Shown in pieces: positions 8,896-30,072 of a stretch of 51,964 bases of DNA (positions are counted from its first letter, which is position 1; each line of letters begins with the position of its first letter). The notes under the pieces are model-generated. The model made no database searches. It was not told the DNA's origin and worked only from the letters and a program-made list of their open reading frames with translations. The position numbers and the translations under genes were made by a program. Where the stretch lies: assembly GCA_003818605.1 (NCBI GenBank), contig RPQS01000025.1:1-51964 (forward strand), given 5' to 3'. The DNA is from Candidatus Zhuqueibacterota bacterium (lineage in GTDB: Bacteria; Electryoneota; RPQS01).

Positions 8896-11451
8896 ATGTA
8901 TTTCGAAAAATTGACGCATTGGGCGCTATTCTTGGCTCTCGCGTTTGTCGTCTCGACGGCTTTTGGGCAACAGCCTGTAGCCCGCAAGAACATGCTGAAT
9001 TCCGGACTTGCCGAAGTCCAAATGACATCGAAGCTCGATCTGCAGACGATAGATCGCATGGGCGGCAACATTGATTGGGTTCAAGGAAACGTGGCTCGGG
9101 TCTATTTACTCCCCGAAGATTTCGAACAACTGCGCGCCTCCGGATTCTCGTTGCAGTGGATTCCTGATGAAGGCAAACTGAGCTTGCAGGACCTGTGGGA
9201 GAAAACGCGGCATACCCGCGATCCGCTCGATGCCTATCATACAAATGACGAAATCCGTACGCAGTTTGCGCTATGGCAGGCGGCATATCCGACTCTCTTC
9301 AAATACGACTCTATCGGCATGTCCGTTTTAGGACGACCCCTTTTAGTCGCCAAGCTCTCGGATTATGTAACCACGGATGAACCGGAAATCGAAGTGAAGT
9401 ACGTGGCCAACATGCATGGCGATGAAACGGTGGGCAAGGAAAATTGTCTCCGGTTTATAGATACACTGCTCACCGGATACGGAATTGATCCCGAATTAAC
9501 TGAGCTGATGACCGATTACGAAATGTGGTTTTTGCCGCTGATGAATCCGGACGGCAACTACAGCTCATCGCGCTACAATGCCAACGGCTATGATTTGAAT
9601 CGTACGTTTCCGGACCGGTGCGACGATTCGGTTAATACGACTACGGGCCGCCCGATTGAAGTGGCCAATGTAATGAACTGGACGGCCAGCCGGAATTTCG
9701 TACTGTCGGCCAATTTCCATGGCGGGGCGTTGGTTGCCAACTACCCGTGGGACAACAACTGCACCGGTGGCGACGTTTATGCTCCGACTCAGGAAGACTG
9801 CTTGTTTGTCTATATAGCCAGGCGCTATTCCTACTACAACACGCCGATGTGGAACAACTCGGCGTTTCCGCCTTGTGGCATCACCCATGGCGCGGACTGG
9901 TACGAACTCAGCGGCGGCATGCAGGATTGGGATTATGTATGGATGGGTGATCGCGAACTGACCCTTGAAATCAGCAATACCAAGAATCCAGCGGCTTCCC
10001 AGCTTGAACAATTCTGGCGTGACAATCGTCAAAGCATGCGTTATTATCTCTTGGAAGCCAAGTACGGCGTGCGCGGAACCGTCACGGACGTGGTATCGGG
10101 GCTGCCCCTGCGGGCGAGCATATCCGTGAATTCCATTCCATATCTGACTTTTAGCAGTGCGCTGCACGGTGAATATTATCGCATGCTTCGGCCCGGAACC
10201 TATTCAATTTCCTTTTCGGTGCCGGGTTACGGATCACAAACTCATTCCGTCACGGTCGCGCCGAATTCCTATACGACGCTGAACGTTCAACTCGGATTAC
10301 CGCCGGATATTGCCGTCAGTCCCGATACGATCCGGACTACGGTGGGCCGTTGCAGTAATGGGAGTGCCTCCTATACTATAATCAATAACGGCGCCGGGCC
10401 GTTGACATGGTCGGCGGTGGAGGGCTATACCAATTACAGCGGATACGGGAGCGCCGTCGGCGGCGACTGGCGATTCATTGACAGCGATCAATCGGACGGA
10501 CCGGTTTATGCTTGGAAAGACATCAGCTCCGCGGGGACTCTGGTCAGCTTTAGTTCGGACGATCAGACTCTGGGGCCGTATTCCGTCGGATTTTCTTTCC
10601 CCTATTTCGGCCAAGCACATACGACATTCAGGATTTGCGGCAACGGATGGATTTCCTTCACGTCCACGTCCACGGCCTATGAGAACGGAATGCTGCCCTC
10701 TTCCGGTGCGCCGCTTAATATGCTGGCGGCATGGTGGGATGATTTGAGTCCGCAGCGTTCGGGAACGCAGGTCAGATATTGGTCGAACAACTCCGATACG
10801 CTGGTTGTGACATTCTCGAATGTGCAGAGTTACAGCGGCAGCGGATTGTATACATTCCAGTTCATTTTGCTCTCGTCGGGCAAGATTGTGTATCAATACA
10901 ATTCGATGGGAACTCTTCGCTTGAATTCTTCAACCATCGGTTTGCAGAACGCCGCGGGTACAAAGGGAATGGCTGTCATCAACAATCAAACGTACATCCA
11001 CGATGCGATGGCTATTGAATTCTGCCCGCATTCGATGATTACTCCGGCTCCGCTGGCAGGAACAGTCGCGCCCATGTCTTCGCAATCGTATGCTGTCAGC
11101 GTAAACACCTGCTGTGTGCCTTTGGGAACGATTGCCGGAATCCTCGCCATTTCATCCAACGATCCGGATTCTCCGACACTTCATGTTCCCGTTGTTATCA
11201 CGGTCGTGGATGCTCCGCCGGACCCGGTCACCGATCTGACGATTTATTCCGAAGGAACAAATGCGCTTCTAAAGTGGAATCCGGTTCCAACGGCATCCGG
11301 CTATCTGGTTTATCGCATGAGCGGAGCCGAACAAGATTACTCCACTGGAGAACTGCTCACGCTCGTACCCATTACCGCCACTTCATACACTGATACGGTT
11401 ACGGCGGCGGCGGCAGGCGTTCGTTTCTATCAGGTTGTTTCCGTCCGCTGA
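8896..11451 (+). CDS. Secreted M14 zinc carboxypeptidase with multi-module C-terminal tail
   Basis: This 851-residue exported metallocarboxypeptidase removes C-terminal residues from peptides. After a signal peptide (about 1-24, ending STAFGQ) the M14 domain shows all expected residues: zinc ligands His174 and Glu177 in NMHGDE, His275 in NFHGG, the NPDG and YDLNRTFP substrate-site segments, and the catalytic Glu358 in LTLEIS. It continues with a carboxypeptidase-regulatory (transthyretin-like) domain, an ASPM-SPD-2-like strand region, a nidogen-like module (GPVYAW to WWDDLSP), a BACON-like module with SSNDPD, and a terminal Fn3-like module ending FYQVVSVR. The last four modules occur in the same order as in the divergent C25 peptidase. 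The ATG at 8896 has AGGA 5 nt upstream; the upstream TTG at 8875 is rejected because it would extend the signal peptide N-region. Confidence 0.93.
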   Translation: MYFEKLTHWALFLALAFVVSTAFGQQPVARKNMLNSGLAEVQMTSKLDLQTIDRMGGNIDWVQGNVARVYLLPEDFEQLRASGFSLQWIPDEGKLSLQDLWEKTRHTRDPLDAYHTNDEIRTQFALWQAAYPTLFKYDSIGMSVLGRPLLVAKLSDYVTTDEPEIEVKYVANMHGDETVGKENCLRFIDTLLTGYGIDPELTELMTDYEMWFLPLMNPDGNYSSSRYNANGYDLNRTFPDRCDDSVNTTTGRPIEVANVMNWTASRNFVLSANFHGGALVANYPWDNNCTGGDVYAPTQEDCLFVYIARRYSYYNTPMWNNSAFPPCGITHGADWYELSGGMQDWDYVWMGDRELTLEISNTKNPAASQLEQFWRDNRQSMRYYLLEAKYGVRGTVTDVVSGLPLRASISVNSIPYLTFSSALHGEYYRMLRPGTYSISFSVPGYGSQTHSVTVAPNSYTTLNVQLGLPPDIAVSPDTIRTTVGRCSNGSASYTIINNGAGPLTWSAVEGYTNYSGYGSAVGGDWRFIDSDQSDGPVYAWKDISSAGTLVSFSSDDQTLGPYSVGFSFPYFGQAHTTFRICGNGWISFTSTSTAYENGMLPSSGAPLNMLAAWWDDLSPQRSGTQVRYWSNNSDTLVVTFSNVQSYSGSGLYTFQFILLSSGKIVYQYNSMGTLRLNSSTIGLQNAAGTKGMAVINNQTYIHDAMAIEFCPHSMITPAPLAGTVAPMSSQSYAVSVNTCCVPLGTIAGILAISSNDPDSPTLHVPVVITVVDAPPDPVTDLTIYSEGTNALLKWNPVPTASGYLVYRMSGAEQDYSTGELLTLVPITATSYTDTVTAAAAGVRFYQVVSVR

Positions 11452-19116: not shown

Positions 19117-20997
19117 CTATTTCATCGCCGCCAGAAGTTCCAAAGACTTTTTCGGGTTGACAAGCTTCATGCTGCGCTCGCCGGCTTTCCGTTCGTCGCA
19201 GCCTTGCAGAATTAGATCGCGGATCTGCAAAGCGGTCAGCGCCGGTTTCTTGGCCAGCAGTTTGCCCGCCAGATTCATGACGTTCGGTGAAGACATGGAC
19301 GTGCCCGAAAACTTGATCTGATCGCCGCCGGGCACGTAGCTCAGCACTTCAAAGCCGTTCGCGTAGGCGTCCACTTTGCCGAAGCTGGTGAAATCGGTTT
19401 CATCGCCGGCCTGATCCACGGCTCCGATGGAAATGATATTGGGCAGACTGAATGAACTCGGATAGAATTCCTCGAACAGGACGTTCGCGTCCGCGTTGCC
19501 GGCCGACGTGATAAACAGAATTTCGGGCGCGCCCTTAATAGCATCGAATAAACCTTTGTACGTGATGTCATAGATCTGACGCGACAAAGCCTTGCGTTCT
19601 TCGGGTGTTCCGCCCGCGTTGTTCGCTTCGAGCGCACCTTCAATGCTTGCCAGCGAACCGCCCCAGCTCATGTTCACCAACCGGACGCCGTTCTGCTTGA
19701 AGTACGTTACGGTTTCCTGCATGGCTTTGGCGTCTTTTTGCGCTTGTTCAATCGTCGGCAGTTCAGGAATCATGTGATAGTCGAACGTCGTGCGACAGGC
19801 CAGAATGCGGGCAAAAGGATTTCCCTTTGCCGCAATGCCCGCCACGTGCGTTCCGTGAGCGTAGTTTCCGTATTTACTGATTTCTTCGAATACCGGCTTC
19901 ACGGAATCTTTAGGCAGCGTGGCCATGAGCTGCTTGATTTCTCCGGCTTCTTCGCTCTGAATGTTCGCCTGCAAATCTTCCAGTCCCTTAATCCGCCGCT
20001 GCATCCGCACGCGGTCGGTTTTCAGATCGCCGATGGGGAAGAGCAGCGAAGTTTCTTTATCGGAATGCAGACTCCACGCGATGCCATGCACGTCGTCCAC
20101 GAATCCGTTTTTATCGTCGTCCGCGTTGTTATCGGGAACTTCTTTCGTGTTCGTCCACATCTGATTCTTGAAAATGTCCGTATCCACACCGCTGTCCCAG
20201 ACGGCCATAATCACCGGACTCACACCGGCCTTTTCCGATAAAGCCACATCCCGCTCCGCCCAAATGTCCGCCTTCTTCACTTCGTTAGCGGCGATGTATT
20301 CGCTATACACAGCTACGATGTCTTCCTTGTACGGAAGCATCACTTTTACCGTGTAAGCCGATCCGATTAAGCTCGTGGCAATGTCTTTGCTCATTTCGCC
20401 GCCGCTCTTGTCCAGAATCGGCTGTGTGGCGGCTTCAATACTGCCCTGCAGGAGTGTTTTGGAGATGATTTCGAAACTGGACTTGGTTTGTTTCGCTCCG
20501 GCTTCTATCGTGGCAAAGGGAAGCGGAGTCAACAGCTTCTTGATCTCCGCGCGAAACGCCGCCGCAAAATCAGCTCCCCCCGCGCGCTTAGCCTGAATGT
20601 ACGCTTGCGCCAACAGCCCCGTGACTAAGCGGGTGGCTTCCTTGTCTTCCAAAGCTTTGCGCTTGGCCAGATTTTCAAGATAGACATCGTAGTTACCTTC
20701 TAAAAAGGCAATCTGTCCGAGATCCGCATAAAACGACTGCTGCGTTGTTTTATCCTGAATGTCATACTTGCTCAGATCATCCAGCAAATCTTTCTTGACT
20801 TCCCCGGCCAGCTTCATCAAAGCTTGCTCATTATCCAAGATCTCAGCGGCTTTGATCCCGATTTTATATGTGTGCCGCGGCAGATCGTCCAATTTGGTAA
20901 TCACGGTCTTTTCCGCCGCCCATGCGGCCGGGCCGAATACGGCCAAGATAAAAAACAACGAAGCCAAAAGTGCAACAACCGAAAAACGGGAATTCAT
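19117..20997 (-). CDS. Secreted subtilisin-like S8 serine peptidase without sorting tail
   Basis: This 626-residue exported serine protease has a signal peptide (about 1-28, ending AAWAAE), a long N-terminal region of about 230 residues without a recognised domain, and a subtilase domain with the full triad: Asp268 in VWDSGVD, His381 in AHGTHVAG and Ser567 in SGTSMSSPN. An acidic DDDKNGFVDD loop after the Asp motif resembles a calcium-binding insertion seen in FCB subtilases. The protein ends soon after the Ser motif (LLAAMK), so it has neither the Fn3-like nor the T9SS-type tail of the other proteases and may stay periplasmic. The ATG at 20995-20997 (MNSRF) has GGAG six bases upstream; the start at 21015 is less likely. 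Confidence 0.93.
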   Translation of the reverse strand: MNSRFSVVALLASLFFILAVFGPAAWAAEKTVITKLDDLPRHTYKIGIKAAEILDNEQALMKLAGEVKKDLLDDLSKYDIQDKTTQQSFYADLGQIAFLEGNYDVYLENLAKRKALEDKEATRLVTGLLAQAYIQAKRAGGADFAAAFRAEIKKLLTPLPFATIEAGAKQTKSSFEIISKTLLQGSIEAATQPILDKSGGEMSKDIATSLIGSAYTVKVMLPYKEDIVAVYSEYIAANEVKKADIWAERDVALSEKAGVSPVIMAVWDSGVDTDIFKNQMWTNTKEVPDNNADDDKNGFVDDVHGIAWSLHSDKETSLLFPIGDLKTDRVRMQRRIKGLEDLQANIQSEEAGEIKQLMATLPKDSVKPVFEEISKYGNYAHGTHVAGIAAKGNPFARILACRTTFDYHMIPELPTIEQAQKDAKAMQETVTYFKQNGVRLVNMSWGGSLASIEGALEANNAGGTPEERKALSRQIYDITYKGLFDAIKGAPEILFITSAGNADANVLFEEFYPSSFSLPNIISIGAVDQAGDETDFTSFGKVDAYANGFEVLSYVPGGDQIKFSGTSMSSPNVMNLAGKLLAKKPALTALQIRDLILQGCDERKAGERSMKLVNPKKSLELLAAMK

Positions 20998-21039
20998 TGG
21001 GGTCTCCATTATCACAGTTGATGTCGAGTGTATCTTCTT

Positions 21040-23807: not shown

Positions 23808-23836
23808 TTGACTTGCCTGTCTGCCCGATGTATATT
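23808..23836 (+). promoter_or_regulatory. Promoter of the coiled-coil / S8 peptidase gene pair
   Basis: TTGACT (23808-23813), a 17-base spacer and TATATT (23831-23836) give a predicted start near 23843, about 35 nt before the ATG at 23878. Confidence 0.75.
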
Positions 23837-23877: not shown

Positions 23878-24294
23878 ATGAAGAGGCTTGCCGTTTCTAC
23901 TGTGATGATTCTGTGCTGGTGTTCTCTGCTTGCCGCTCCGAGCCCTGTGCCTTCCGGAGTTTCCGCGCTCACTTATCCGGAACGGATTCACCTGCTTGAG
24001 GAGGAAACTCAGGCACAAATGACAGTGCTTTTCCAACAAGTTGCTGCCGATCCGGCTCAACGCGAGTCAATCGAAAGGCAAATCATTAAACTGAAGAATC
24101 AAGCCGAAATACACCGTTTGGAAATTCTGCTCGAATGGGCTGAAGCGGAGGGAAACCAAAATAAGGCTGCGGAAATACGGAAAGCCCTCGACCAATGGCG
24201 GACTCCCGTCGTGCCGCCCAAGCAATCACCCGTTCCACGTGATGCTCCGAATGCAACCGGCATTGTTCCCGAATCCAAAGATTCTTCGCGGTGA
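23878..24294 (+). CDS. Small secreted coiled-coil protein
   Basis: This 138-residue protein has a signal peptide (about 1-20, ending LLAA), an alpha-helical middle rich in Glu, Gln, Arg and Leu (about residues 33-105, heptad-like, likely coiled coil), and a short proline-rich tail. I recognise no family. GAGGA precedes the ATG with good spacing. It is transcribed from a good promoter and its stop codon is three bases before the TTG start of the large S8 peptidase, so the two are almost certainly coexpressed. A role as protease chaperone, inhibitor or export partner is inference from position only. Confidence 0.75.
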   Translation: MKRLAVSTVMILCWCSLLAAPSPVPSGVSALTYPERIHLLEEETQAQMTVLFQQVAADPAQRESIERQIIKLKNQAEIHRLEILLEWAEAEGNQNKAAEIRKALDQWRTPVVPPKQSPVPRDAPNATGIVPESKDSSR

Positions 24295-24297
24295 TCC

Positions 24298-27200
24298 TTG
24301 CGAAAACTGCTGATCATATTCCCTCTACTTGGACTGCTGCTTTACGCAGGATTCGCGGCAAGCGATGAAGCGGCGGATGCCGTCTCCGTGCAGGGAGTTC
24401 TTCTCGAAACTCCGCTTCCGCAAGCAGCCGCAGATTATCGCGTGCCAGTGAATCGCTCCAAGGAAAACCTTCCGCCTCTCTTTTTCCCGCCGCACGCAGG
24501 AACGCTAAAACCGCGCCCGATCACTCCGAAAGATTTCTATCTGAATTTGGCGGACGTATCCAATCCGCACGGCTTGATCGTAAAATTTTCCGAAGAAGCG
24601 ATGATTCGCTGGCGCGACGGCAAGCCGTATTCTAAGACCGGTGCGGATGTCGCAGCTGTCTTAGAGTTTCTTGCCCGGTACCCGGACATTAAAATGGAGC
24701 GGGATGATCCGCTGCAGCCCGAGGAACTTTTCGATTACTGGGAAGCTAACGGCGAAAAAAACACGGGACAGGATCTGGCCAACCTGAATAATTTCTATCA
24801 ATTTTACATTCCGCAGAATCCGAAACCACTCGATATCGTCCGCGAAGTTCTCACTTGGGATATTACAGAAACGGCTTTCTATCTTCCCCAATGGCAGTTG
24901 GCTTGTACGGATGATCCTCCCGCCACTTTAAATTGGGAAGCGGATCAGCCTTACCTTGATCCCGCACCGCTGGGAATTAATGCGGAGTATTCGTGGAACT
25001 ATCATCCGACTCTGGGTCGGGGACGAGCGGATTATTGGTGCATTGACGTGGAAATGGACTGGTCCGAAAACCACGAAGATTTCCCGCAGGCTTTTCAGGT
25101 TTTAGGCGGCGGGGATGCGGGCGGCGCCGCTGATCATGGCGATGCCGTGATGGGAATCGTCGCGGCCTGCAATAACGGCTTCGGCATTACCGGAATCAGT
25201 TCGAACGTCACGCCCAAAGCGATTTCGTGGCCCACACGGTCGGGGATTACTCATCAGGACAAATGGATTTCTGCATTCAATCTCGCCGCGGCTTATCTAT
25301 TGCCCGGCGAATCTTACCTGATTGAGATCCACTACTATGGCCCCGATCCGGGTTTTGGCTGCGATTCCGTCTGCGGAAATTGTTCGCAATTCCGCTTCAT
25401 TCCCGTGGAATACTGGGACAATGTTTTTACGGCGATTCAGACTCATACCGCCAACGGATTTATCGTCTACGAAGCGGCGGGCAACGGCCAAATGGATCTG
25501 AATAATCCCGTTTACGGAAATCGCTTCCAGCGTTCATTCCGTAACTCGCAGGCGATTTTAGTCGGCGCGGCATTGCCGGAAACGCGCGAAGCCGAATGCT
25601 GGTCTAATTTCGGCTCCCGAGTGGATCTGCAAGGCTGGGGACGCGATATTTTCACGCTCGGTTACGGCAATCTTTGGCAAGGCACAGCGGATCCCGACCG
25701 CAGTCAGTGGTATACGTCTTCTTTCGGAGGAACGTCGGGAGCCACGCCGATTGCCGCCGGAGCGGGGAATTTGCTGCAAGGAATTTCGCAGGGGAAATTC
25801 GGCATGACTCTTTCACCGGATCAGGTGCGCGATTATTTGTCTGCCACCGGAACGGCTTGGACGGGATCCCGCGATGTTGGCGAACGCCCCGATTTAGCGC
25901 AAGCCATCAATTATATCGAACCCGACGTCACATCCTATCATCGTGCCGGTTGGGACAATCCTGTTGTTCCGCGCGCTGCCATGGATGCCGGCTGGGACGA
26001 CTGCCATGTCACTCCGTATTTATACGGCAATGGCAACACCTACTTCAACGTGATCGGCATAAATTCGGGTCGTTCCCCCGCGGCCGATTGCACGTCCGTC
26101 GGAGTCTATAGCGAACTCTGCGTGGATAGCGATGGTATCTATGGACTGTCCTGGACACCGCGCATTGCGCCGTTGCAGCAGATGGGCGGAATCAATCTCC
26201 CCGCCGCCGTAATTCGCGGCGGCCGCCATACCTTGGGCTGGCTGCTCGATCCTTACAACGCCTTTAATGAATTTTCGGAGAGCAACAATTCATTTTTTAC
26301 GCAGTACGTATGGTCGCCGATTTCGATAGCGAATGATAATCCGATAGAACGTATTGCACCGCCGCTAAAAACTTGGGGCAGCCCCGTTTATTACAATGGA
26401 GATGGTTTTCATGCTCATGGCGGTTGGTGGCTGGGCGTCGCGGTGATGCCGCAATTAGGTAATGATGTGGATCTCTATACGTTCAACACATCCTATTCCA
26501 GCACAACCGGTTTCGACACGTGGGAAAAGTACAGCATGCGCGGCACAGGTTTCCCTGATTTGATTATGGTTAACGGCAACATTCAAGGCTATAATCCCAC
26601 CCGCTATTTTCAAGCCGTGCGATATTCGGACACATCGAACCAATCCTACCATGTCGAAGCCGATACCAGCAAGCCCGCTTATGGAGTGCCTTGCAGCATG
26701 ATTGGCACGCTGACGAATCCGGAAATATTCGATATGTACGAGCTATATCTGGTTTCCGGGCAGCAGTACTTTATTGGTATCACGGATGTCGCGGCGGCGT
26801 TGGATCTTTCCTTGTTGATCTTCGATCCGGCAAGCTCTGTGGAATCTTATTGGGATTGCCGGTGGCTGGCCAATGCGCACGGAGCGGGCGGCAATGAAGT
26901 TGTTATGGTGGATGCCGATATATCCGGTTATTATGCCGCCGTGGTGATGAAAACCGGTTCCGGGAATTATAGCACGGAAGGTTCCTTCACTTTTTCGGTC
27001 GAGAATCCGGGACTGTGCAATCTGGTACCGGGCTTAAATCGGGAGGGTTGGGATGCCCCCGTCGTCATTCGCAATGATGGCGGCGCAACTGCGGATGATT
27101 GCCGCTTTCCGGCAGCCATTCAAGGTAACACGGATAATTTCATCAGTGGAACTTGGTTTAACAATAGCATGATGCCATTGGATATGACGTTTGCCAATCG

Positions 27201-28362
27201 GGTCTATGTGGACAACGAAGCCGTAACGGACTTTTTTCACGGCGGCTCGTTGAACCCGTTCTCATTCGGCCAGGAACTCAATGTTCCTATCGGGCCGATT
27301 CGCGGCGGGCGGCATACATTGACTCTTGCCGTGGATGCCGATAACGATGTTGCCGAAACAAACGAAACGGACAACACCTACTCCGCCCAACATGTCTGGA
27401 GTCCGCTGACGCTCGAATCCGGAGTGCCTGTCAATCGCTCCGCACCTCCTGCGCGCGGAAGCGGTGTCTATCCCAATGGCGACGGCTTCGCGTTTTCACC
27501 TTTTCCCGAACAAGGCAGCGCCGTTTGTCTTTTGGCGGAATCGTCAACATCGGATTACGATCTGTATCTTTATTCCGATTATGCGGGAACGGATTCCGGA
27601 TTCTCTTTCCTGATCGAAAACTCGATCCATGCTTCCGGATCGTCCGACTACGTGTTTGTTCCGTGGCGCTTGTCAGGTACATATTCGTCGTATTACCCGG
27701 CAATTATAAACTACAACGGTTCGAACCTGTCGTTTCGCGTGGAAGCACGGCAGGCGGAAGGCCGCTTTGAAACCACTCACTTGTGGGCTGCCGAAGACAG
27801 CCTGCCGCCGGAAAACCTGTTGCATATTTATGAATTTCTGCTTAGCGGCGGCGTCCGTTATGTGTTTGAATGCGGCATCCTTGCCGGAAATGCGGACCTC
27901 GAAATACGTCTGCATCCTGATTCGGCGGAAGCCACCGCAAGATTCGATGCCGTCGCTGTATCCGATGCGGGCGGCCCGGGTGAAGATGAAGAATTTATGT
28001 TCACTCCGCCGCTGACGGATTATTATGCTCTCATTATAAACAAAATCAATTCTGCATCGCTGAACGAGTTTAGCCGCTATCAATTGCGCATCGGACCGGA
28101 TAGTCCGCTGCCGGTGAATGACCTGCGCGCGCTGAAAGCGGATTCATCCGATGATATCCGTTTGACATGGACGCACGTTCAGCAAAGCATATTCGGCCTT
28201 CCCTTGTTGAATCGTCTCTATGTGATTTATCGCAGCACGACTCCCCAGTTTACTCCCACTCCCGCCGAATACATCGGCCAAACAACTGACAGTACGTTTA
28301 CGGATCCCGTCAGTTCATCCATTCCCAGATATTTTTACTGCGTCACGGTTCGCAACGATTAA
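24298..28362 (+). CDS. Secreted S8 family peptidase with duplicated CARDB-containing unit
   Basis: This 1354-residue exported protein begins with a TTG start three bases after the upstream stop and has a signal peptide (RKLLIIFPLLGLLLYAGFAA). The subtilase domain (about 225-540) has Asp250 in CIDVEMDW, His280 in DHGDAVMG and Ser480 in GGTSGATP. This is the divergent S8 branch in which the Asp motif is DVE-like. After it come two copies of a unit of about 365 residues (about 543-905 and 910-1265). Each unit starts with GWD..VV, contains a CARDB-like sandwich with IRGGRHTL, then VWSP, an APP....NGDGF segment and a pre-peptidase-like domain. The C-terminus is a Fn3-like module (from about 1277) ending YFYCVTVRND. 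No T9SS-type domain is present. Confidence 0.9.
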   Translation: MRKLLIIFPLLGLLLYAGFAASDEAADAVSVQGVLLETPLPQAAADYRVPVNRSKENLPPLFFPPHAGTLKPRPITPKDFYLNLADVSNPHGLIVKFSEEAMIRWRDGKPYSKTGADVAAVLEFLARYPDIKMERDDPLQPEELFDYWEANGEKNTGQDLANLNNFYQFYIPQNPKPLDIVREVLTWDITETAFYLPQWQLACTDDPPATLNWEADQPYLDPAPLGINAEYSWNYHPTLGRGRADYWCIDVEMDWSENHEDFPQAFQVLGGGDAGGAADHGDAVMGIVAACNNGFGITGISSNVTPKAISWPTRSGITHQDKWISAFNLAAAYLLPGESYLIEIHYYGPDPGFGCDSVCGNCSQFRFIPVEYWDNVFTAIQTHTANGFIVYEAAGNGQMDLNNPVYGNRFQRSFRNSQAILVGAALPETREAECWSNFGSRVDLQGWGRDIFTLGYGNLWQGTADPDRSQWYTSSFGGTSGATPIAAGAGNLLQGISQGKFGMTLSPDQVRDYLSATGTAWTGSRDVGERPDLAQAINYIEPDVTSYHRAGWDNPVVPRAAMDAGWDDCHVTPYLYGNGNTYFNVIGINSGRSPAADCTSVGVYSELCVDSDGIYGLSWTPRIAPLQQMGGINLPAAVIRGGRHTLGWLLDPYNAFNEFSESNNSFFTQYVWSPISIANDNPIERIAPPLKTWGSPVYYNGDGFHAHGGWWLGVAVMPQLGNDVDLYTFNTSYSSTTGFDTWEKYSMRGTGFPDLIMVNGNIQGYNPTRYFQAVRYSDTSNQSYHVEADTSKPAYGVPCSMIGTLTNPEIFDMYELYLVSGQQYFIGITDVAAALDLSLLIFDPASSVESYWDCRWLANAHGAGGNEVVMVDADISGYYAAVVMKTGSGNYSTEGSFTFSVENPGLCNLVPGLNREGWDAPVVIRNDGGATADDCRFPAAIQGNTDNFISGTWFNNSMMPLDMTFANRVYVDNEAVTDFFHGGSLNPFSFGQELNVPIGPIRGGRHTLTLAVDADNDVAETNETDNTYSAQHVWSPLTLESGVPVNRSAPPARGSGVYPNGDGFAFSPFPEQGSAVCLLAESSTSDYDLYLYSDYAGTDSGFSFLIENSIHASGSSDYVFVPWRLSGTYSSYYPAIINYNGSNLSFRVEARQAEGRFETTHLWAAEDSLPPENLLHIYEFLLSGGVRYVFECGILAGNADLEIRLHPDSAEATARFDAVAVSDAGGPGEDEEFMFTPPLTDYYALIINKINSASLNEFSRYQLRIGPDSPLPVNDLRALKADSSDDIRLTWTHVQQSIFGLPLLNRLYVIYRSTTPQFTPTPAEYIGQTTDSTFTDPVSSSIPRYFYCVTVRND

Positions 28363-28463
28363 TTCTCTCCGCGGCATCCCCTCAATGAAAGGACGGAGTC
28401 GGGTCAGCCCTCGCTTCTCGTTTATGAAAGATATTGCCCTCAACACTCAATACAGTTTCGATT

Positions 28464-29645
28464 ATGAGATTACTCATCATTATTTTCTTTCTCCTCACGG
28501 CCGGCATGGCTTTCGGTGAGGTTCAGATAGTAACTCGCGATCTACAGCAGGCCATCAATCTTGCAGTGGACGGGGACACGCTGCTCATTGAACCCGGCCG
28601 CTATATTGCCGATTCTGCGCCGTTCGTGGAATCCATCTGCGGAAACTGCGCCGACCATCAAACCGAAGTTCATGCCACGCGCGGTTTTGTGGTGGATGCC
28701 AAGCGGCTTGTCCTGCGTGGACGACATGCCGCAAAGACTGTCTTGGAAACCCGCGCCGGATACGGCCTTCTTTTACTGAATTCCCACGGAACCGTTATCG
28801 AAAATCTGACGGTCACCGGCGGCAAGCGGGATCGCGAGGGCAATGCTACGGACGGCGGTATCGTGCTCAAGTATTCCTCGGCAACGATCCGCCGTTGTCT
28901 CATCGCCGATAATAGTGATTACAACGATTCCACGGTCGTGGGCATTGGCGGAGTAATGATCCGCGAAGGCAGCGATGCACGAATTGAAGAGTGCGTCATT
29001 CGCAGCAATTCCTGGGACGGCGTGGCTCTTTATCGCGGGGCGCGCGCAACGATTTCCGATTGCGTGATTGATTCCGGCCGCGGTGCGGGCATCGGAGCAA
29101 CGTGGGATGCCGTGGCCGTATGCCTGCGGAATCGGATTTCCCATTACTGGAAAGGAATCGGTTCATTCGGAACCGCCACTGTGGTTGCGCGGAATAACGC
29201 CGTTTTTGAGAATCTGGGCTGGGGGGTTATTGTGTCAGGTTCCAGCACAATGATTGCGGAAAATAACGTTTCCGCACGCAACGGAAACTGCGGCATGGCG
29301 GTCTGGAATCGCGGCACGCGCGGCCGATTCGTCAACAATATTTCCGCTTTCAACGGCTGGAGAAAAGAATGGGTTTGTCCGTGCGTGGGGTTCTGGAATC
29401 AGGAGGGCGATACGGCGGGCTGGCAAATATCGCACAATCTTGTCTGGAATAATTCCGCTGGCAACGTGCAGGGAATGGACTCCACGGCATTTCTTATCGC
29501 GGATCCGCAATTTTCCGATACAGTGAGCTTTCGTTTAGCGGAATCTTCTCCGGCTCGCGGACAAGGCAGCCCGGAACTGACAAACTATAACGGCGCACCG
29601 TCGGATATCGGCCTGTCCGGCGGGCCGGAAGCCGTCAAACCATAG
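28464..29645 (+). CDS. Secreted right-handed parallel beta-helix protein
   Basis: This 393-residue protein has a signal peptide (MRLLIIIFFLLTAGMAFGE) and a body of short repeats of about 22-25 residues with N, G and hydrophobic ladder positions (for example RCLIADNSDYND, ECVIRSNSWDG, DCVIDSGRGAG, RNNAVFENLGWG, ENNVSARNGNCG). These fit the PbH1 / NosD-like parallel beta-helix fold of pectate-lyase-type proteins. There is no clear catalytic motif, so polysaccharide binding or cleavage is only possible. The ATG at 28464 is chosen because it opens the signal peptide; no good ribosome binding site is visible. It is followed by yjbQ after ten bases. Confidence 0.82.
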   Translation: MRLLIIIFFLLTAGMAFGEVQIVTRDLQQAINLAVDGDTLLIEPGRYIADSAPFVESICGNCADHQTEVHATRGFVVDAKRLVLRGRHAAKTVLETRAGYGLLLLNSHGTVIENLTVTGGKRDREGNATDGGIVLKYSSATIRRCLIADNSDYNDSTVVGIGGVMIREGSDARIEECVIRSNSWDGVALYRGARATISDCVIDSGRGAGIGATWDAVAVCLRNRISHYWKGIGSFGTATVVARNNAVFENLGWGVIVSGSSTMIAENNVSARNGNCGMAVWNRGTRGRFVNNISAFNGWRKEWVCPCVGFWNQEGDTAGWQISHNLVWNNSAGNVQGMDSTAFLIADPQFSDTVSFRLAESSPARGQGSPELTNYNGAPSDIGLSGGPEAVKP

Positions 29646-29655
29646 CGGGAGAAAC

Positions 29656-30072
29656 ATGGTTCACGGAGAAGAGATCGTCATTTCCATGAAAGGTTTTTCG
29701 GACATTCACGATATCACCGCGAATGTCGAAGAAATCGTAGGAAGATCCGGAATTCGCAGCGGATTGGTATGCGTCTTTGCTGTTGGTTCAACCGCTTCGG
29801 TTTCCACGATTGAATTCGAAGGCGCGTTAACGGAGGATTTTCGCGAGCAGTTGGAAAAATTGTTTCCCCGCACAATGCGCACACGTCACAGCGAAACATG
29901 GGGCGATGACAACGGTTTCTCGCATATTCGGGCTACGTTAATGGGACCGCAGATTACGGTCCCCTTAAAGGACGGTCAGTTGGTGCTCGGCACATGGCAG
30001 CAAATCGTCGTGATAGACCATGACAACCGCCCGCGTACGCGTAAGATCTTCGTACAGATCATGGGAGAGTAA
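29656..30072 (+). CDS. yjbQ: YjbQ family protein (UPF0047)
   Basis: This 138-residue cytoplasmic protein matches the YjbQ/UPF0047 family, whose Escherichia coli member has weak thiamine-phosphate synthase activity; the physiological role is unclear. Conserved features are SGLVCVFAVGSTASV near residue 35, the HSETWGDDNGFSHIRATLMGP region near 80-100 (His-containing site), and LGTWQQIVVIDHDN with PRTRK near the C-terminus. The length is that of the family. The ATG has GGGAGA a few bases upstream and sits ten bases after the beta-helix gene, so the two share a transcript. It converges on fapA with a gap of 20 bases. Confidence 0.93.
   Translation: MVHGEEIVISMKGFSDIHDITANVEEIVGRSGIRSGLVCVFAVGSTASVSTIEFEGALTEDFREQLEKLFPRTMRTRHSETWGDDNGFSHIRATLMGPQITVPLKDGQLVLGTWQQIVVIDHDNRPRTRKIFVQIMGE

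Follow-up and report, generated by a model that had tools for sequence, protein, structure and literature searches.

The window analyzed here, a 51,964-nucleotide stretch of a Candidatus Zhuqueibacterota genome (a fragmented assembly of 3.23 Mb in 253 contigs), carries two adjoining genes on its forward strand. The upstream gene (23,878–24,294, +; ATG start) encodes an exported helical protein of 138 amino acids that belongs to a new small family, and the downstream gene (24,298–28,362, +; TTG start) encodes a secreted S8 peptidase of 1354 amino acids. Both ORFs are as an earlier note on this DNA had described them, with the first ending 3 nt before the TTG of the second. They share one reading frame, with TGA TCC as the sole separator; the large ORF has no in-frame alternative start upstream of the TTG, and its complete signal peptide (LRKLLIIFPLLGLLLYAGFAA; predicted from the hydrophobic N terminus, 24,298–24,360, +) requires that codon. 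So short a separator raised the possibility of a read-through fusion; the presence of a signal peptide on the large ORF itself, and a frame relation that relatives do not keep, led us to reject it. An SD-like GGTGATC read from the sequence (24,290–24,296, +) overlaps the TGA stop of the small gene. The earlier note had further placed both genes behind one good promoter. A sigma-70-like TTGACT-17-TATATT, identified by consensus match only and located 41 nt upstream of the small gene (23,808–23,836, +), is the top match of the region (10/12), but the region holds 7 promoter-like matches against 5.9 ± 2.1 expected from shuffles, which is no excess, so the element is best regarded as a candidate. 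That the small gene is coding is indicated by conservation of its protein sequence in other genera and other phyla.

The surroundings include a second S8 peptidase of 632 amino acids (Peptidase_S8, 1.8e-25; 19,117–21,015, −), ≈3.3 kb from the protease and beyond a TonB-dependent receptor, with no small gene noted alongside. Downstream of the protease lie genes for a beta-helix/NosD-like secreted protein (28,434–29,645, +) and a UPF0047 protein (29,656–30,072, +); a UPF0047 gene is also close to the degraded copy of the pair in G001, described below.

The large protein matches the Pfam families Peptidase_S8 (1.1e-7) and CARDB (6.5e-8; 33.2 bits against PF07705, above the cut-off of 22.7) and gives a profile match to subtilisins. 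Alignment with homologs shows the catalytic triad (D250, H280, and S480) and the oxyanion N396 to be intact. By inspection, the peptidase carries its own propeptide-like N-terminal region, which together with the S8 catalytic domain spans 24,514–25,929 (+) in the alignment. The remainder is built from two copies of a CARDB-like unit that we call the U module, the first with the signature GGRHTLG...QYVWSP (25,942–26,694, +) and the second at 27,040–27,756 (+). A P segment that is PPC-like by inspection separates the two copies (26,695–27,039, +), a second P segment follows (27,757–28,107, +), and the protein ends in an FN3-like domain common throughout the window's family (28,108–28,359, +). 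In general, U modules are ≈240 amino acids long, share the motif GGRHT...QYVWSP, and usually occur in two copies. They hold a CARDB-like Ig fold, and 12 of 26 members match PF07705, but U is longer than CARDB, and it is with U that the small gene co-occurs; our literature search returned no report of such a small partner for CARDB proteins. Structure prediction of the U/P module from a two-row alignment gave a mean pLDDT of 31. An NCBIfam scan of the window's large protein found no T9SS C-terminal domain (Por_Secre_tail/TIGR04183).

AlphaFold2 models the small protein as a signal peptide, three helices (residues 33–57, 59–91, and 94–108; 23,974–24,201, +), and a disordered, proline-rich tail, with block pLDDT values of 88 to 97 for the helices from an alignment of only two rows. 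The earlier description of an exported coiled-coil protein thus holds for export and helicity, whereas "coiled-coil" only approximates the three-helix model. The mature protein, ≈13 kDa with a pI of 5.4 and no Cys, matches no Pfam or NCBIfam family. A Pfam scan of 10 family members yielded no significant relative, a PDB profile search yielded nothing significant (the best match, at 7e-4, is to a short helix of a designed protein), and a fold search with the model likewise gave no significant match. Besides the signal peptide, no recognized secretion signal was found. Within the predicted disordered tail, VPRDAPNATG (24,232–24,261, +) is the counterpart of a V-x-R-D-P-x-T-G motif in relatives. 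Although picked post hoc, that motif retains 72% identity between lineages in which core identity is down to 21%. Conserved Arg/Lys and EGGxR residues at the C terminus were set aside because they mostly coincide with the SD and start codon of the next gene, which leaves the more internal RDPxTG motif as the one lead from the tail.

Searching 61 genomes for the gene pair, the check proposed in the earlier note, recovered both the long protease and the small gene in seven (G001, G003, G004, G005, G007, G008, and G010) as well as in the window. Within the window's family, the pair occurs in all eight protease-bearing genomes, in one of them degraded, and the small gene occurs in none of the three without the protease (G002, G006, and G009, which have neither). 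The degraded pair is that of G001, from the same genus as the window, in which, through a deletion, the small gene runs into the protease near residue 95, after which the protease frame breaks. This deletion (L051:4500–4700) is clean and reflects either gene decay or misassembly; a search of same-genus contigs returned this degraded copy alone. The pair is split between contigs in G004, and G007 and G010 each have two small paralogues in tandem. The small gene therefore does adjoin the protease in relatives, and conserved order and coupling strongly support the proposal that the two form a functional pair. The two genes make up a real functional module that has been conserved.

Among the pairs collected here and in the wider searches below, the small gene comes first, and in 23 of 24 the large gene starts between −4 and +20 nt from the small-gene stop. 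Many pairs have ATGA or GTGA stop/start overlaps in which the SD falls within the small gene's 3′ terminus; where the genes are spaced apart (G003, G004, G008, and G062), a separate SD follows the stop. The rare TTG start had been read as a hint of fixed stoichiometry. Across the 23 pairs with a listed start, however, the best-placed large-gene start is ATG except for GTG in two and TTG in the window only; being a peculiarity of the window, the TTG says nothing about stoichiometry.

To survey other lineages, we searched with a profile of the small family and, separately, for U modules across 386 genomes. The profile identified relatives in G062, G088, G230, G231, G233, G361, and G364; weak matches in G018, G034, G163, G297, and G362 were treated as chance. 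Some of these loci repeat the arrangement around an S8 protein: G088 has three successive tandem modules of two small genes and an S8 gene, and G361 and G230 have two small genes upstream of one S8 gene. Elsewhere, the gene directly downstream encodes an M43 metallopeptidase (L118, L120, and L182), a sortilin/BNR protein (L123 and L187), or another giant (L125, L126, L128, and L181). Profiles made from the noncatalytic part of the window's protease reveal U in every readable large protein directly 3′ of a small gene, be it S8, M43, sortilin/BNR, TIG, or other. Long S8 homologs have the small gene in 12 of 12 cases with U and in 0 of 22 without it (Fisher p = 1.8e-9, kinship ignored). Single genomes show the same distribution, with G230 encoding one S8 protein with U and a small gene and another with neither, and G233 and G364 encoding S8 homologs with neither alongside U-bearing BNR proteins that have the small gene. 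The assumption that the protease is the partner must therefore be given up, since the small family also precedes M43 and nonpeptidase giants and is missing from U-less S8 homologs.

The survey of 386 genomes yields the same picture at the level of whole genomes. The small gene and U occur together in 14, the small gene alone in one, and U alone in one; put differently, 14 of the 15 genomes with full-length U have the small gene (hypergeometric p = 1.5e-23, kinship ignored). Many of these pairs stem from few lineages and are not independent. In the reverse test, loci found through U alone (L180, L181, and L182) carry a small gene upstream, with a diverged one at L187, and a genome from a later search, G386, has a distal small gene, a proximal small gene, and an S8-U gene in the same order. 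Of the U proteins with readable upstream sequence, 23 have a small gene just ahead, and one further U protein, in G008, is second in such an operon. No small gene was found in cis for L186 or for L183, whose upstream sequence stops at a contig end after just 184 nt; an adjacent partner is thus not obligatory for U. The pair co-occurs in five bacterial families or more, where the flanks are unrelated, and the small-gene module is reused in tandem in G088 and G062. The partnership of the U module with a small helical protein is thus well supported as a rule.

Several loci depart from the simple arrangement. In G231, one of the 23 cases above, the small gene and the U gene are separated by a gene for an additional exported protein of ≈150 amino acids (L125, about 9059–9540). 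A small gene in G233 (L195:784–1176, −) precedes an exported SBBP-repeat–like protein that is truncated by the contig end and hence is not among the readable large proteins. In G387, two small domains share a reading frame close to the end of a contig (L194:74–739), and no U protein was found in that genome.

Some of the S8 partners appear to have lost their activity. The catalytic Asp is replaced in three U proteases, by Ile in G007 and G010 and by Val in the second S8 protein of G008. As judged from these residues, the three (L057, L058, and L056:5139–8054) are likely pseudo-proteases; they keep His, Ser, and the U module, and their operons retain the small gene. The small-gene tree sorts by partner class (6 changes) and not by genome (21 changes), suggesting that small gene and partner travel together. 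Diverged proximal and distal small paralogues stand in tandem in G007, G010, G088 (three times), G361, G230, and G386, and the distal copies group in a single clade with members from both the window's family and the G088 lineage, across phyla.

Nearly all of the genomes concerned have a T9SS. Among the 18 examined, SprA, the T9SS translocon, scores above cut-off in 17, and T9SS type A sorting domains number from ≈70 to >150 per genome. The window's genome, from a little-known phylum, has an SprA homologue and no fewer than 150 matches to the type A sorting domain. Some other U proteins end in such a domain, whereas the window's protein ends in the FN3-like domain.

The closest described systems each differ from the small family. 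Skp has a beta head and forms a trimer, features in which the small protein differs. It also serves many cargoes with no gene-by-gene cargo pairing and has no sequence match to the small protein: the best E-value against Skp/OmpH (PF03938) is 0.15, in one member, and no Skp is among the PDB matches. In Flavobacterium johnsoniae, however, the T9SS translocon includes a helical Skp homologue, SkpA, as a functioning component (PMC10994853), which makes a helical periplasmic helper plausible, short of proof. Like the small protein, SkpA and PGN_0300 of the T9SS extended translocon (PMC10994853) are small and helical; these periplasmic proteins are needed for T9SS export, and the window's genome has SprA. 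The lipase-specific foldases Lif and LipH (PMC7046727, PMC3352829) are likewise dedicated, mostly helical periplasmic chaperones, each for one secreted enzyme. They are, however, membrane-anchored, much larger, and restricted to lipases, whereas the partner of the small protein is defined by a noncatalytic module; a Pfam scan of 10 small-family members gave no foldase match, and none of the partners scanned matched a lipase. Nor could homology be detected between the small protein and Skp, SurA, or Lif. S8 propeptides and separate inhibitors share with the small protein an S8 partner, as in the window, but the small family follows U rather than S8. Its all-helical model and its M43 and sortilin partners also separate it from I9-type subtilisin propeptides and inhibitors. 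A literature search found no description of the gene pair.

In our judgment, there is an even chance that the small protein acts in the periplasm as a partner dedicated to very large, Sec-exported U-module proteins, most likely as their chaperone in export or folding. The small cistron would be translated first and its ribosomes would reinitiate on the large cistron, so that partner and cargo would appear together in a coupled ratio. Sec would export both. Until the giant has passed through the outer membrane or become attached to it, the helical core would shield its repeated U/P beta-sandwich region or assist in folding it. The observations behind this proposal are the conserved order and coupling, the constancy of U, the independence from the type of enzyme, the confident helical model, and SprA in nearly all genomes; from them we infer a periplasmic site of action, contact with U, chaperone activity, and any T9SS link. 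Counted against it are the lack of homology to Skp, SurA, or Lif, the U proteins L186 and L183 without an adjacent small gene, and the missing T9SS C-terminal domain in the window's large protein, unlike some U proteins.

The main rival to a chaperone is a structural subunit, which we regard as a possible but distinctly less probable function. The small protein would be secreted with the giant and remain bound to its U modules at the surface, where it would serve as an anchor, a clamp, or a spacer; loci with two small genes might supply a heterodimer. Fixed pairing and coupling suit such a role, as do the tandem diverged paralogues with their single distal clade across phyla and the tail motif that stays 72% identical while cores fall to 21%. 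That motif was chosen post hoc, however; moreover, the small protein has no recognized secretion signal beyond its signal peptide, and a small-gene-first order is common for helpers. It is also conceivable, if rather improbable, that the small family and U form a targeting system in which the helical adaptor recognizes U and delivers giants lacking a C-terminal sorting domain, such as the window's protease, to the T9SS translocon or another outer-membrane route.

Other readings fare worse. A mainly translational device, in which a giant cistron that initiates weakly receives its ribosomes from the small cistron while the small protein itself is nearly functionless, would explain the many stop/start overlaps in which an SD lies within the small gene's 3′ terminus, and R/K and EGGxR at the C terminus do partly reflect SD and start signals. 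We consider it unlikely, given that the protein core is conserved across phyla, tracks partner class, and retains a signal peptide, and that in the spaced pairs (G003, G004, G008, and G062) a separate SD follows the stop. The earlier note had offered inhibitor, chaperone, and substrate presentation as possible roles, of which only the chaperone survives. Although the window's peptidase has an intact triad, a role directed at the S8 catalytic domain, whether as a protease inhibitor, as a propeptide-like foldase, or in substrate presentation, is very unlikely because the small gene follows U across enzymes, pairing also with M43 and nonpeptidase proteins, is absent beside S8 homologs without U, and stays with S8 proteins lacking the catalytic Asp; the peptidase also already has, by inspection, its own propeptide-like region. 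A chance or neutral neighborhood within a conserved genome segment, which the shared ancestry of the pairs in the window's family might suggest, has a negligible likelihood in view of the unrelated flanks across five or more bacterial families and the tandem reuse in G088 and G062, and is refuted by the small genes at loci found via U and by the later-searched G386.

The small family is probably a previously undescribed family of dedicated export or assembly helpers. It constitutes a new protein family whose partner is predictable from a domain, in several little-known T9SS-bearing bacterial lineages, and the rule that a U module implies an upstream helical partner is applicable to any genome. 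The pairing may explain how giant surface proteins without a recognized sorting domain are exported or assembled, and, should U indeed be the address that the helical partner reads, such chaperone-addressed cargo would represent a class not yet described.
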